Source: Serratia marcescens
GTDB lineage: Bacteria; Pseudomonadota; Gammaproteobacteria; Enterobacterales; Enterobacteriaceae
Direction of reading: 5' to 3'
Assembly (NCBI RefSeq): GCF_001902635.1
Contig: NZ_MJAO01000015.1
Coordinates: forward strand, 62,001 to 126,000
Length of the DNA: 64,000 nucleotides
This document shows, in pieces, positions 4,868-11,183 of the stretch. Position 1 is the first letter of the stretch, and every line of letters begins with the position of its first letter. Below the pieces are notes generated by a model that had not been told where the DNA came from, made no database searches, and saw nothing but the letters and a program-made list of their open reading frames with translations. Position numbers and translations under genes: made by a program.

Positions 4868-5694
4868 AATCATCCTTGATCCGCCGCCTGGCGCTGATGA
4901 TGACGCTGGCGCTGCCGCTCACCGCCGCGGCGGCGCAGCGCATCGTCTCGATCGGTGGCGACGTGACGGAGATCGCCTTCGCGCTCGGTGCCGGAGAAGA
5001 CGTGATCGCTCGCGACAGCACCAGCCTGCATCCGGAAGCGGTGACCAAGCTGCCGGACGTCGGCTATATGCGCCAGCTGAACGCCGAAGGCATTCTGGCG
5101 CTGAAACCGACGCTGGTGCTGGTCACCGAACTGGCGCAACCGGCGCTGGTGCTCAAACAGTTGGCGGACAGCGGCGTCAAGGTGGTCAGCGTGCCGGGTG
5201 ACACCACCCTGCAGGCGGTGCCGCAGAAAATCGCCGCGATCGCCGCCGCGCTGCAGCGCGTGGAGCAAGGTAAACAGTTGAGCGAACGCTATCAACAACA
5301 GTTGGCGGCGGTCGATACCACCCCGCTGCCGGTCAAGGTGCTGTTCGTGATGAGCCACGGCGGCATCACGCCAATGGCCGCCGGGCAGCACACCGCCGCC
5401 GACGCGGTGATCGCCGCCGCCGGATTGAAAAACGCCATGCAGGGCTTTGACCGCTACCGTCCGCTGTCGCAGGAAGGGGTGATCGCCAGCGCGCCGGATC
5501 TGCTGCTGGTCACCACCGACGGCGTACGCACCCTCGGCGGCGAACAGCGGCTCTGGACGCTGCCGGGCCTGGCGCTAACGCCGGCGGGCAAACAACGCCG
5601 CGTGCTGATCGTCGATGACATGGCGCTGCTGGGCTTCGGCCTGGAAACGCCGGCGGCGCTGGCCAAGCTGCGCCACGCGGCGGAGCAAAAGTAA
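4864..5694 (+). CDS. hemT: Periplasmic heme-binding protein HemT
   Basis: A 276-residue substrate-binding protein of the heme ABC transporter HemTUV. The signal peptide is [19 protein letters not shown] with cleavage near TAAAA. The mature part starts [18 protein letters not shown], the class III binding-protein fold used by siderophore, B12 and heme carriers. The ATG at 4864 overlaps the hemS stop. A longer reading from 4819 would place 15 basic residues ahead of the signal peptide and is rejected. The gene runs into hemU with a TAATG overlap. Confidence 0.92.
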
Positions 5695-6698
5695 TGCGTT
5701 GTCGTACCTCGCCGCAGCTGGCCATCGTCGGTTTGCTGGTGTTGCTGACGCTGCTGGCACTGATCGCCGCCAACCTGGGCGCGCTGACGCTGTCGTTTGG
5801 CACCCTGTGGCGCGAACCTTTCAGCGACGCCACCTGGCACATCTGGCTGAACATCCGTCTGCCGCGCGTGCTGCTGGCGGTGGTGGTCGGTTGCGCGCTG
5901 GCGGTGTCCGGCGCGGTCATGCAGGGGTTGTTCCGCAACCCGCTGGCGGATCCGAGCCTGCTGGGCATCAGCAGCGGCGGCGCGCTGTTTGTCGCGCTGT
6001 TCATCGTCATGCCGCTGGCGTTGCCGGTGACGATCGCGCTGTACGGCCATATGCTGGCGGCGTTCCTCGGCAGCCTGCTGGTGTCGTTATTGATCTACGG
6101 TATCAGCCGCAGCGGGCACGGCAATCTGTCGCGGCTGCTGCTGGCGGGCATCGCCATCAACGCCCTGTGCATGGCGGCCATCGGTGTGCTCTCTTACGTC
6201 AGCAGCGATCAACAGCTGCGTCAGTTCTCACTGTGGATGATGGGCAGCCTCAGCCAGTCACAGTGGCCGACGCTGACCGTTTCCGCTTCGCTGATCCTGC
6301 CTGCGGCGCTGTTGACGTTGTTGCAGGCGCGCCGGCTGAACCTGCTGCAGCTGGGGGACGAAGAGGCCCACTACCTCGGGGTGAACGTTCAGCGCGCCAA
6401 ACTGCAACTGCTGTTGCTGAGCGCCCTGCTGATCGGCGCCGCGGTGGCGATCAGCGGCGTGATCGGCTTCGTCGGTCTGGTCGTGCCGCACCTGGTGCGC
6501 ATGCGCCTCGGCGGCGATCACCGCTGGCTGTTGCCCTGCTCCGCACTGGGCGGCGCCTGCCTACTGTTGGTCAGCGACACGCTGGCGCGCACCCTGGTGG
6601 CGCCGGCCGAAATGCCGGTCGGGTTGATGACCAGCCTGATCGGCGGCCCTTACTTCTTATGGCTGGTGATACGCCAGCGGGAGCGAACCGGTGGATAA
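5694..6698 (+). CDS. hemU: Heme ABC transporter permease HemU
   Basis: A 334-residue inner membrane permease of the FecCD/BtuC family, with about ten hydrophobic segments. Family motifs seen are [23 protein letters not shown], which starts the conserved gate region, and [16 protein letters not shown], which carries the glycine-rich loop contacting the ATPase. It would form the membrane channel for heme delivered by HemT. It overlaps hemT by one base and hemV by eight, so the three are translationally coupled. Confidence 0.92.
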
Positions 6699-7476
6699 CG
6701 CCGCCTGCCTGACGGCCCATGCGCTGCGCTACAGCCTCGGCGCGCGCCGCTTGATCAACGACATTTCGCTCAGCCTCGCCGGCGGCGAAATGGTGGCGAT
6801 TATCGGCCCCAACGGCGCCGGTAAATCGACACTGCTGCGCTTGCTGACCGGCTATTTGACGCCGGACTGCGGCGAGTGTCGGCTGCTTGAGCGCCCGCTG
6901 GAACACTGGGCGCCGCAGCAACTGGCCAAAGTCCGGGCCGTGATGCGCCAATACAGCGATCTGGCCTTCCCGTTCAGCGTGGAAGAAGTGGTCAGTATGG
7001 GGCGGGCGCCGCACGGCAAACGCGACGAACGCCAGGCGATCCAACAGGTGATGGCGCAGACCGATTGCCTGGCGCTGGCGCAGCGCGACTATCGCCAGCT
7101 TTCCGGCGGTGAGCAGCAGCGGGTGCAGCTGGCGCGGGTGTTGGCGCAGCTGTGGCAACCGCAACCGTCCCCCGCCTGGCTGTTCCTCGACGAGCCGACC
7201 TCGGCGCTGGATCTTTACCACCAGCAACAGACCCTGCGCCTGCTGCGTTCGCTGACGCGGCAACAACCGCTGGGCGTCTGCTGCGTGCTGCACGATCTCA
7301 ATCTGGCCGCGCTGTACGCCGATCGCATCCTGCTGTTACATCAGGGGCGACTGGTGGCGAGCGGCACGCCGCAGGAGGTGCTGCAAACGGAGATCCTCAC
7401 CCGCTGGTATCAGGCCGATCTCGGCGTGGTGCATCATCCCGAAGTGTCGCTGCCGCAGGTCTACCTGCGTCAATAA
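6691..7476 (+). CDS. hemV: Heme ABC transporter ATPase HemV
   Basis: A 261-residue ATPase for HemTUV. Walker A is GPNGAGKST (about residues 39-47), the signature is [17 protein letters not shown], Walker B is [12 protein letters not shown], and the switch His is in [10 protein letters not shown]. Translation begins with GTG (GTGGATAACGCC) inside the end of hemU, where the codons still match the family N-terminus. It is the last gene of the operon. Its terminator has been split by the mobile element that begins 22 bases downstream. Confidence 0.92.
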
Positions 7477-7480
7477 CGTC

Positions 7481-7497
7481 AAGGGCGCCATTAAGCG
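7481..7497 (+). other. Left half of split hemV/selO terminator
   Basis: AAGGGCGC CATTAA GCG is the 5' arm, loop and first bases of the 3' arm of a terminator whose remaining part (GCGCCC plus T-run) lies at 8272-8283. Removing the intervening 765 bp and one 12-bp repeat restores AAGGGCGC / GCGCCCTT with loop CATTAA and a run of T. Confidence 0.75.
7486..7497. repeat. Target site duplication, left copy
   Basis: CGCCATTAAGCG lies directly against the left end of the mobile element and recurs without change at 8263-8274. Confidence 0.85.
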
Positions 7498-7513
7498 TAA
7501 TGCTTGTCAGTTA
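7498..7513 (+). repeat. Terminal inverted repeat, left
   Basis: TAATGCTTGTCAGTTA, identical to the reverse complement of 8247-8262. Similarity ends after 16 bases. Confidence 0.85.
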
Positions 7514-8246
7514 ATCCTGACTGGCTTTTTTTTATCCAGTCTCTGTACGTGACATGCAGGATGAATTGCCGTAAAAACCCCGAATTTCTCTGTTACTGCA
7601 ATGAACGGCAATTGAAGAGGCCGAAGGCGCGGCCCCTTCACCCGCGCCTTCGCTTAACACCGTCTGTCCGCTGTGCGGATACCCTCGCCGCGTCTGCATT
7701 GTCGGGCGGGTCGGCTACGACAAACGTCCCTGTTAGTCTCGCCTCAACCGGCCTTCCCTGGCCGGTTGCCCCTGACAACGCTGTCTTGCTCGGCAGCCGG
7801 AGATGCGCGCCAAAGGTCAACACCCGCGCTGGCGGCTACCGGGCAACCTGTCGCTTATGAGGTTACGGTAGATAAGTTGGAGATGAGCGCGATGTTGGGC
7901 GCCCTTGAAGACGCCGAACACAGGCATAGCGCATTAGGCGAAACCGCCATGGACGGCGGTTTCAGGTAAGACAGGCAGGGACGCCTGTCGCAACCGGCCT
8001 CAATGCGGTATGGCGGAGGGAGGAAAAATCTGCCAGGAGCAGATTTGAACGCTGCTTGCAGCGGCCCCGAAGGGGCGAGGCCCAGGGATGGGCCGAGTAA
8101 CGTTGGCAAAGCCAACCGTCTGATAGGCCGAAGGCGCGGGTTGCCAGGGGCCGCGCCTCGGCCCCTGGCTCGGTCGAGGTGCGTGAGCCACATGTGGCAT
8201 CTCGCTTTTATCGACCGAAAACGTCACGAGTACTTCAAAAACACGC

Positions 8247-8262
8247 TAACTGACAAGCATTA
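8247..8262 (-). repeat. Terminal inverted repeat, right
   Basis: TAACTGACAAGCATTA, the exact inverse of the left end. It is followed immediately by the right target duplication. Confidence 0.85.
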
Positions 8263-8274
8263 CGCCATTAAGCG
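8263..8274. repeat. Target site duplication, right copy
   Basis: CGCCATTAAGCG, identical to 7486-7497. It merges with the surviving 3' arm and T-run of the old terminator (to 8283). Confidence 0.85.
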
Positions 8275-8287
8275 CCCTTTTTTCATC

Positions 8288-9730
8288 TCAGCTGGAGCAG
8301 GAAATCTCCAGATGTTTGCCCCAGTCCGGCGGCAGCGCGGCGAGATCGTCATACTCCGGCGCATCGTCGAACGGCCGCAGCAAGGCCTGATGCAACCGCT
8401 GCAAACGGCCGACGTCGTCTTTCTCCGCATCTTCAATCGCCTGCTGCGCCAGATAATTGCGCAGAACCAGGCGCGGGTTCACTGCCTTCATCGCCCGTTG
8501 CCGCTCCGCATCGCTCACCTGCTCCTGCTGCAAACGCTGACGATACTGCTGATACCAGGCATCAAACGCCGCGCGATCGATAAACTCGTCCCGCAGCGGC
8601 GACTGCGCCTGTTGCTGCTCGGTTGCGCTCAACAGGCGGAACGTACGGGTGTAATCCCGCCCTTCCTGTGCCATCAGGCGCAACAGACCGGTGAGCAGGT
8701 CATTATCCTGCGCCGTCGGCGTGAAGAAGCCGAGTTTGGCGCGCATCTGTTCGCCGTAGGCGCGCATCAGCGCCGGTTCATACGCCGCCAGCGCCTGCTG
8801 CAACTGTTCGGTGGTCATCAACCCCGACAGGGTTTGCGCCAGACGATGCAGGTTCCACAACGCCACCGCCGGCTGATTGTCGAAGGCGTAACGCCCCTGA
8901 TGATCGGAGTGATTGCAGATATAGCCGGGTTGGTAGTCGTCAAGGAAACCGTAGGGGCCGTAATCGATGGTGATGCCGAGGATCGACATGTTGTCGGTGT
9001 TCATCACGCCGTGGGCGAAACCGACGGTTTGCCAACGGGCGATCAGACGCGCCGTGCGTTCGACCACGTCGGTGAACCACAAAACATAGCGCTCAGCCTG
9101 ATCGTCTAACTGCGGCCAGTGGCGGGCGATGACGAAATCCGCCAGCTGCCGCACCTGTTCCTGCTGTTGGCGATAGTAAAAGTGTTCGAAGTGGCCGAAG
9201 CGTACATGGCTTTCCGCCACCCGCAGCAGCATCGCGCCGCGCTCCGGCTGTTCGCGGAAGACCGGCTGCCGGCTGGTGACAATAGTCAGCGCCCGGGTGG
9301 TGGGGATCCCCAAATGGTGCATCGCTTCAGAGGCCAGAAACTCGCGGATCACCGAACGCAGCACCGCGCGGCCATCCCCCATGCGCGAATACGGCGTCAG
9401 CCCGGCGCCCTTCAGGTGCCAGTCGCGATGGCTGCCGTCCGCCAGGACCTGCTCGCCGAGCAGAATACCACGGCCATCGCCTAGCTGCCCGGCCCAAACG
9501 CCGAACTGGTGGCCGCTGTACACCTGCGCCAGCGGCTGCATGCCCGGCAGCAGCGTTTCTCCCGCCCAAATCGGGGTTTTATCCTGCGTAAACCAGCTTT
9601 CATCCAGCCCCAGCTCACGCGCCAGCGGCTCGCTGTGATACAGCAGGCGCGCATCCTTGAGCGGCGTCGGGTTCAAGGCGGTGTAGAAACCGGGTAACTG
9701 TTGGTAGTAAGCGTTATCGAACTGCGGCAT
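8288..9730 (-). CDS. selO: Protein adenylyltransferase SelO (YdiU)
   Basis: A 480-residue SelO-family pseudokinase. Members transfer AMP from ATP to Ser, Thr or Tyr of target proteins and take part in oxidative stress responses. Family stretches seen are [18 protein letters not shown] near residue 70, [21 protein letters not shown] near 110, and [25 protein letters not shown] near 245, which supplies metal and nucleotide contacts. The C-terminus is SCSS; eukaryotic forms have selenocysteine near here and bacterial forms a cysteine. The length matches E. coli YdiU. It converges with hemV, and the mobile element now separates them. Confidence 0.93.
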
Positions 9731-9988
9731 AGGCCCTCCGTTTCAGCGTAGTGTAGAGCCTGTGCGGACGGATTAACACCGAAGGAATGCAGGGAGAACG
9801 CATCCGCCTGTCGCCAGGACGGATGCGGGAGGTATCGCGTTTTCGTCATGCGGGGTAAACGCGGTTTCATGCGGGCCGATAAACATTTTTATCAGCGAGA
9901 AACGACGGTGAATAACGGTAACGGAATCACGGCAAACATCACCCCGTCCATTATTTACCCCATTGTGTGTAGTTTTTTATATCACTTC

Positions 9989-10720
9989 TTAATTATTGAA
10001 CTCGCTGGGCGTTGCCAGCAAACTTTGCAGATTATCCACACCAACGCTGGGCCATAAAAAACCTTGCAGGCCTAAAACACCGGCGTATCTGAGTTTATTA
10101 AAATACTCTTTTTTCTCTATTCCTCCGACGATCACGCCTTTACACAACAGGTTGATATTCTTTAACAACGAGTCGATGACTACGTCATACCCCTGATGGG
10201 TAAACAACTGCCAGTAAAAACGCTTGTCTATCTTTACATAGTCGAACAAACCATCATACAACGCGGTCAGCGTCGCTTTACCTGACCCGAAATCATCGAG
10301 CCACAGCGTAAACATTTCGCTTAATCGACGCACGCTCGGGTTGTTCTTCCCGGCCGAAAGATTCGGAAAACTCTCACTCATTTCAAATGCAATAAAAGGA
10401 TATTGCCTGATCCATTCACACAGTGCCGGATCGGAAAGAATAAGCTCGACGATGGTTTCTTCAATATTGATGGTCAACTGCACACTGTTACCGGTAAACC
10501 AGGCCGCGTGCCGCTCCGCAAGTTTCAATTGCTCATTAAATAACTCAATCCTTTGTTCGGGGGCCAATAAATTAATCCCAATTTCGGCCGGCATGACCAA
10601 ATCACCGTCAAGACTGTTGAAACGGCTCAACATCTCCACCGCCAACAGCCCACCCTCCATTGAGTAAACAGGTTGAAAAACATAGCTACTAATAAAGTCA
10701 GCTTCGAGTTGGATGTTCAT
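9989..10720 (-). CDS. EAL-domain protein, YdiV-like
   Basis: A 243-residue single-domain EAL protein in the chromosomal place of E. coli ydiV (rflP), between ydiU and nlpC. YdiV binds FlhD and represses flagellar genes without degrading c-di-GMP. Here the signature triplet is E-M-L (residues 29-31) instead of E-A-L. Yet many positions used for metal and catalysis in active enzymes appear kept: INIE, EMSES, DDFGSG, VKIDK and GLQGF. It has no membrane segment and no GGDEF partner. Whether it is an active phosphodiesterase or only an anti-FlhDC factor cannot be told from sequence. The upstream DNA is AT-rich. Confidence 0.75.
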   Translation of the reverse strand: MNIQLEADFISSYVFQPVYSMEGGLLAVEMLSRFNSLDGDLVMPAEIGINLLAPEQRIELFNEQLKLAERHAAWFTGNSVQLTINIEETIVELILSDPALCEWIRQYPFIAFEMSESFPNLSAGKNNPSVRRLSEMFTLWLDDFGSGKATLTALYDGLFDYVKIDKRFYWQLFTHQGYDVVIDSLLKNINLLCKGVIVGGIEKKEYFNKLRYAGVLGLQGFLWPSVGVDNLQSLLATPSEFNN

Positions 10721-11183
10721 TTTAATGCCACAGGATGAATGGCTAGCGTATCATCGTATATCAATATATTTTATCGATCAATCCTTCTGGGATTAATCGG
10801 AAATATCAATGTAAATGCCCATGAAATATCATTTAATTGATAGATTAAAGCTATACGACAATCGCGAAAGGCGCAAAGAAAAGCAGCCGAACTTATGCCA
10901 GATTTCTCGGCCAACGCGTTTTGGAAAAAGATATTTGGCTTAAGTGGAATGGATGAGGGCGTAAATTTGACTTATCTCCTTTGTTTTAATTAAGAAAAAT
11001 CTTAAATAAAGTAAAATAATCTTTCCGTCGTAACGCCGATTTTTCCTACCGTTAACGATGACTGATTAAATTTAATAACGCATCAATTCACCCCGCTATT
11101 CGCGGCATTGAAAATGTAAAAAAGTGCCCAGCTTGATTTTCAGGAAATCTGCGCTACGCGCCTTTCAACGGGGCTTTAGGCAT
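10721..11183. other. AT-rich intergenic region
   Basis: About 460 bases between the EAL gene start and the lplA terminator, much richer in A and T than the genes around it. It must hold the promoter of the EAL gene (reading left). One 32-codon frame (10895-10993, plus strand) has no convincing ribosome site and is not called. No repeat or RNA gene was recognised. Confidence 0.5.

Follow-up and report, generated by a model that had tools for sequence, protein, structure and literature searches.

A probable non-autonomous IS4-type element in the hemV-selO terminator of Serratia marcescens and the probable preference of its family for terminator-type targets

The analysed stretch of Serratia marcescens DNA (64,000 nucleotides; hereafter the window) contains two convergent genes, hemV and selO, whose shared terminator is interrupted by a 765-bp repeat element. 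The features of the locus are as follows, with the strand given where one applies and the basis of each assignment in brackets.

6691..7476, plus strand: hemV (hmuV), heme ABC transporter ATP-binding protein, upstream neighbour (NCBIfam NF010068, 384 bits, cut-off 261)
7481..7488: left half of the interrupted hemV/selO terminator, AAGGGCGC (direct reading; intact in relatives G007 and G015)
7486..7497: left copy of the target duplication, CGCCATTAAGCG, apex of the terminator hairpin (direct reading and repeat search)
7498..8262: probable non-autonomous IS4-type element, 765 bp (multicopy, duplications, shared ends)
7498..7513, plus strand: left terminal inverted repeat, TAATGCTTGTCAGTTA (agrees by eye with the ends of the IS4 subgroup; consensus as in Table 1 of PMC2266710)
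7498..7623: left part of the core form (~235 bp), element positions 1-126 (short copies)
7502..7533, plus strand: terminator-like left end, hairpin 7502-7525 and then T8 at 7526-7533 (folding, end-hairpin comparison, terminator scan)
7624..8145: inner module, element positions about 127-648, missing from the shortest copies (copy comparison)
7745..7768, minus strand: hairpin with AGGGAA loop (hairpin count, copy comparison)
7940..7963, plus strand: hairpin with ATGGAC loop (hairpin count, copy comparison)
7970..7989, plus strand: hairpin with AGGGAC loop (hairpin count, copy comparison)
8023..8101, plus strand: four-hairpin cassette of ~75 bp, absent from the ~690-bp copies and also found inside ERIC-like repeats elsewhere (copy comparison)
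8146..8262: right part of the core form, element positions 649-765 (short copies)
8247..8262, minus strand: right terminal inverted repeat, TAACTGACAAGCATTA (direct reading and repeat search)
8263..8274: right copy of the target duplication, CGCCATTAAGCG (direct reading and repeat search)
8272..8283: right half of the host terminator, GCGCCCTT, and T-run (direct reading; intact in relatives)
8288..9730, minus strand: selO, protein adenylyltransferase, downstream and convergent (NCBIfam NF000658, YdiU family, 636 bits, cut-off 431)

The nearest named relatives of hemV are from S. marcescens, S. nevei, S. bockelmannii and S. ureilytica (95-97%), and the selO product scored 838 bits against the SelO model NF040880, below its cut-off of 900. 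An earlier, sequence-only reading of the locus had described perfect 16-bp inverted ends, a 12-bp duplication and the lack of a transposase, all of which were confirmed by direct reading, domain search and ORF check: TAATGCTTGTCAGTTA and TAACTGACAAGCATTA match in inverted orientation at 16/16 positions, the duplication copies (7486-7497 and 8263-8274) are identical at 12/12, the transposase domains PF13006 and PF01609 had no match anywhere in the genome of this strain, the element included, and no ORF lying wholly within the element exceeds 118 amino acids. The description of the element as hairpin-rich also agrees with the count of 22 perfect hairpins on both strands, compared with a mean of 6.3 and a maximum of 20 in 300 dinucleotide shuffles.

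Removal of the element together with one duplication copy restores AAGGGCGC-CATTAA-GCGCCCTT followed by a T-run, a hairpin of -13.9 kcal/mol. This had been proposed to be the original bidirectional terminator, and the orthologous place in G007 and G015 reads AAGGGCGCCATTAAGCGCCCTTTTTT, exactly the predicted empty site. As had also been noted, insertion left only a 3-bp stem on either side; each duplication copy retains CGC/GCG, and the left junction folds into four pairs including a G-U. Other close relatives carry alleles of the hemV-selO terminator, and more distant relatives have a different sequence there. The terminator is filled in three species: besides the window, G022 carries a 691-bp copy with the duplication CGCCATGAGGCG, an allele that is empty in G003 and G005, and G013 carries a 235-bp copy in the opposite orientation, with duplication copies alike at 10/12 bases. 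Because the three filled states differ in duplication allele or orientation, they are best read as independent hits.

The genome of this strain gave 28 matches to the element, corresponding to about ten copies: two of 765 bp, one of 683 and one of 695 bp, one partial copy and five short copies of 235-319 bp. Multiple copies here and empty sites in relatives bear out the earlier view of a mobile element, which has the characters of a MITE (short, multicopy, with inverted ends and a duplication, and without a transposase). At least 25 of the 41 genomes searched contained a match, the family being multicopy in Serratia; among the matches listed, many genomes matched the inner ~75-bp cassette only. 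Copy lengths overall extend from the short forms (235-319 bp) to 845 bp. The family sample comprised 57 loci (55 fetched regions plus L001 and L002), 43 of which had an end pair by the set criteria and 29 of these a duplication of at least 75%; after removal of eight with similar flanks, including the window's own site, which is counted under L105, 21 distinct element sites were obtained. Scoring was thus confined to copies with both features, 14 end pairs having no recognisable duplication and 14 loci lacking an end pair. One site is common to L092, L098, L113, L117 and L124, from five genomes, with copies of 235, 765, 235, 691 and 768 bp, respectively; these lengths suggest that a resident copy can acquire or lose the inner module.

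The ends of the element point to the IS4 family. A search with the Pfam domain Nterm_IS4 found it in 5 of 60 genomes, and 30 loci were fetched from these five, 24 of them with paired ends; dropping L079 (no duplication) as well as L065 and L069 (flanks like another's) gave 21 distinct IS4 sites. The transposases of the three IS4s checked (L062, L083 and L063) carry Nterm_IS4 and DDE_Tnp_1, lie above the NCBIfam cut-off as IS4 family and show the motif Y(2)R(3)E(6)K (YREK), which is given as an IS4-family motif in PMC2266710. Such a transposase, with DDE and YREK, is present in the end-sharing transposons of relatives, and none was found in the genome of this strain. The window end TAATGCTTGTCAGTTAA equals one end of the IS4s of G021 over 17 bp and fits, by eye, the IS4-subgroup consensus -AATR--------WTW, and the ends of a 235-bp copy match K-12 IS4 at 19/19 and the G021 IS4s at 16/16 positions. 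Furthermore, the 12-bp duplication falls within the 10-13 bp given for the IS4 subgroup (PMC2266710, Table 1). Since 16-19 bp at the ends agree without mismatch with IS4-type ends of relatives and of K-12, we classify the element as a non-autonomous IS4-family element. Beyond the end regions, no common sequence was found between five short copies and the 24 IS4s plus K-12 IS4; the longest match (35 bp, L091 with L083) still lies within the end region. No autonomous IS4-type partner was found in the genome of this strain, which gave no match to Nterm_IS4 or DDE_Tnp_1, and for the same reason the element looks stranded there.

To classify the target sites, a site was called terminator-like if the duplication lay at the centre of a stem with 7 or more pairs, one mismatch being tolerated, and an A- or T-rich tract was present as well. 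This held for 17 of the 21 distinct element sites and 18 of the 21 distinct sites of IS4-type transposons, compared with 45 of 20,000 random window positions. Within a search range of ±20 bp, with ties assigned to the centre, the centres of the best hairpin and of the duplication lay no more than 1.5 bp apart at all 21 element sites and no more than 1 bp apart at 19/21 IS4 sites, so that 40 of the 42 sites together share this register (≤1.5 bp). The element sites L121 and L134 have weak stems only (6 and 4 pairs), and the target duplications at the 21 distinct sites measure 10-14 bp (two of 14). The arms of the sites consist of an A-tract and G/C on the left and of G/C and a T-tract on the right. 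The sequence-only reading had suggested targeting of terminator-type palindromes from the precision of the single insertion; with these fractions and the exact register, insertion targeting of terminators is strongly supported at the sequence level. The family has many copies, and terminator palindromes flanked by duplications make up most of the scored sites, the opposite of ancestral single-copy DNA or of unrelated, non-palindromic flanks without repeats.

With about even chances, the transposase reads a linear dyad and not the hairpin, that is, two arms (A-tract/GC and GC/T-tract) spaced by roughly one turn of the helix, in which case terminators would merely carry the motif. The arms are conserved over the 42 sites and most strongly in the 21 IS4 sites, where position -5 is A and position +5 is T in 21/21; three E. 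coli IS4 sites that are not terminators also keep partly A-rich/T-rich arms. The arm motif AAAASSSN{10,13}SSSTTTT has 91 occurrences in G000 (11 for the reversed control), and among the first 50 of these listed, 40 are hairpins. Since most listed arm-motif sites are hairpins, the 35/42 terminator-like insertions are roughly the share that recognition of the arms would produce by itself. The hairpin itself is favoured, however, by stems that often extend into the duplicated apex (up to 16 pairs), by L092, with weak A/T arms yet a clear hairpin, and by a looser motif for which only four of eight sites in the window, a small sample, are hairpins.

The E. coli IS4 sample, 14 loci hand-picked among 60 listed of 2739 matching records together with K-12, comprised 15 loci at 8 distinct sites. 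Five of the eight are terminator-like and adjoin glgP, bamD, a cold-shock gene, crr/pdxK and adhE; the remaining three (the K-12 nan-region site, yicI and an oxidoreductase gene) have A8/T8 values of 6/5, 4/4 and 6/4. Judged by these sites, the terminator preference of E. coli IS4 is looser than in the two sets above. The bamD and adhE terminators are occupied by IS4 in more than one E. coli strain (L178, L179, L180, L185 and L186), and the adhE terminator is hit in both orientations. An IS4 insertion in the pheST attenuator is reportedly described in the older literature.

Folding of the element's left end gives GCTTGTCAG-TTAATC-CTGACTGGC (-8.8 kcal/mol), followed by T8, which places a hairpin and T-run (7502-7533) 21-52 nt downstream of the start of the old terminator. 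A consensus terminator scan includes this end, with a regional yield of 2 that is not above shuffles (mean 1.5, s.d. 1.3); it listed no minus-strand terminator in the region, and no promoter was found in the scanned region. For the entire left junction, folding exceeds that of shuffles by only a modest margin (z -1.30), and the right junction folds the host A-tract with the element's T5 (z -2.35, suggestive only); the right end of the window copy has only a weak hairpin and T5. Across the family, all 29 scored copies carry an end hairpin with T-run, compared with 32 of 600 random 75-mers; 28 were scored at the left end and L108, in reversed orientation, at its other end. Eight of the 29 right ends pass the same test, one being the reversed L108, so that seven are true right ends. 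The end hairpin is carried by 48 of the 57 fetched loci in 30 sequence versions, the copies being related and the counts not independent events. Among these related versions, pair 9-24 occurs as GC, CG, AT and TG and pair 8-25 as GT, AT, GC and TG, each paired in 27/30, and pair 13-20 is paired in 21/30 and unpaired in 9/30.

Readthrough from the heme operon into the antisense of selO had been considered a possible consequence of the insertion. This was not supported and was rejected as the default, since the left end itself rebuilds a terminator-like hairpin with T8 (the scan yield not exceeding shuffles), and readthrough from that side is thus unlikely. As selO transcription enters the weak right end, any loss of termination would more likely fall on selO. 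It is also conceivable, though we are inclined to doubt it, that the end hairpin serves transposase binding or shields the element from host transcription instead of acting in host termination. The first end of K-12 IS4 has the same design, with an 11-bp stem (by eye) followed by TCTTTTT, and the inner half of the end hairpin may represent an additional site for transposase binding and not a terminator. The two roles are, however, compatible, and all 29 scored copies retain the T-run that immediately follows the stem.

The inner module carries further structure. The element contains five hairpins with GGA loops (four on the plus and one on the minus strand). In 300 shuffles such hairpins averaged 0.33 and never exceeded 2, and none of 82 same-length windows held more than 2. 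Loops and stems vary little among copies, so covariation supports neither side. Two inverted 59-nt arms (7709-7767, minus strand; 7941-7999, plus strand) are 71% complementary, and each is a two-hairpin unit with GGA loops, one per strand. The Rfam family TwoAYGGAY, for which CsrA binding has been put forward as a hypothesis (PMC4333381), matched on both strands with 32.1 and 30.8 bits; membership of this type of CsrA/RsmA-binding RNA was rejected, as the Rfam gathering score is 43. AaHKsRNA22 was another weak Rfam match. We treat the GGA-loop hairpins as a possible CsrA-type cargo, as a lead only. A bolder proposal, to which we would assign little probability, is that IS4-type elements form a terminator-directed class that swaps terminators and lands nearly harmlessly, and that the long form has picked up its paired GGA-loop hairpins, on both strands, which would act as mobile CsrA/RsmA-binding RNA whenever transcription entered across the side with weak termination.

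The ~75-bp cassette (8023-8101) recurs within ERIC-like repeats in several Serratia genomes (L017, L018, L020, L038-L041, L043 and L044), whose flanks we take to be ERIC; its presence in both suggests one insert common to two unrelated repeat families. Identity of the whole element with ERIC/IRU was rejected, because its ends are IS4-type and only the inner cassette is common. Plasmid records matching the element numbered 175, of which 172 were from Salmonella, and among the 20 plasmid matches listed only the cassette part was matched. A group II intron was likewise rejected: no intron family occurred among Rfam matches up to E 1 (positions 5000-11000), and a 12-bp duplication is present instead.

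Two further accounts of the target preference fare worse. Random insertion, with selection keeping only copies between convergent genes, where terminators lie, is very improbable; intragenic insertions would often be lost and the window site does lie between convergent genes, but survival alone does not predict the exact register of 40/42 sites. That the palindromic look is a product of the duplication itself, inverted ends being present in many duplications, or of chance in GC-rich intergenic DNA deserves practically no credence, since the stem runs beyond the duplication into the host arms and the intact palindrome in uninterrupted relatives refutes it at the window site.

We regard it as highly probable that the element is a MITE-like, non-autonomous member of the IS4 subgroup that was moved in trans, that the transposase prefers symmetric, terminator-type targets, and that the left end is a replacement terminator. 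In the past, an IS4-type DDE transposase would have moved the element in trans, preferring a symmetric target made of an A-tract, three G/C, 10-13 bp, three G/C and a T-tract; in the genomes studied, most such targets are bidirectional intrinsic terminators. The 10-13 bp that become duplicated would correspond to the hairpin apex, insertion would split the host hairpin in two, and the left end, predicted to fold as a terminator of its own, would still stop transcription from that side. The multicopy family, the empty sites, the recurrent hits, their register and the ends shared with IS4 are apparent from sequence comparison, as is the conservation of the end hairpin with changes on both sides of its stem. 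An element that inserts into a terminator and supplies another would be able to multiply at low cost. Operon 3' ends would accordingly be a predictable place to look for IS4 relatives, and for annotators a split terminator need not equal lost termination.

In the literature covered on IS4 targets and MITEs, with subscription journals mostly outside its scope, terminators were nowhere described as a target of IS4 elements: the main text of PMC2266710 does not contain any word that starts with terminator, and no such description occurs in the portions covered of the papers on MITEAba12, BrickBuilt, small mobile sequences and IS1 or of a MITE review. BrickBuilt elements are described as terminator-flanked in 10/19 instances (BrickBuilt paper).

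Among known systems, E. coli IS4 resembles the element in its ends (19/19 bp with the left end of a short copy), in the end hairpin with T-run and in its preference for terminators (5/8 distinct sites); it differs in being 1426 bp long and encoding a transposase, whereas the search gave no IS4 transposase within the window element or close to it. Tn7 and group IIC introns are mobile DNA that lands in or at terminators; unlike the element, they are guided by a target-site protein or the intron RNA and have no IS4 ends. Mobile insertion cassettes are moved in trans. Together with IS231 they carry extra or cargo DNA between IS4-family ends (PMC2266710), whereas they are mostly from the Bacillus cereus group and have different ends (CAT...). 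The YPAL/RU-2 repeats of Yersinia are, as described in PMC2229807, small repeats whose targets span or adjoin dyad symmetry; in contrast to the element, they have duplications of 3-26 bp and internal inverted repeats, and the account names no IS4 ends. Finally, ERIC/IRU elements have TA termini and other ends (PMC2229807, Table 1), yet have the ~75-bp four-hairpin cassette in common with the element.
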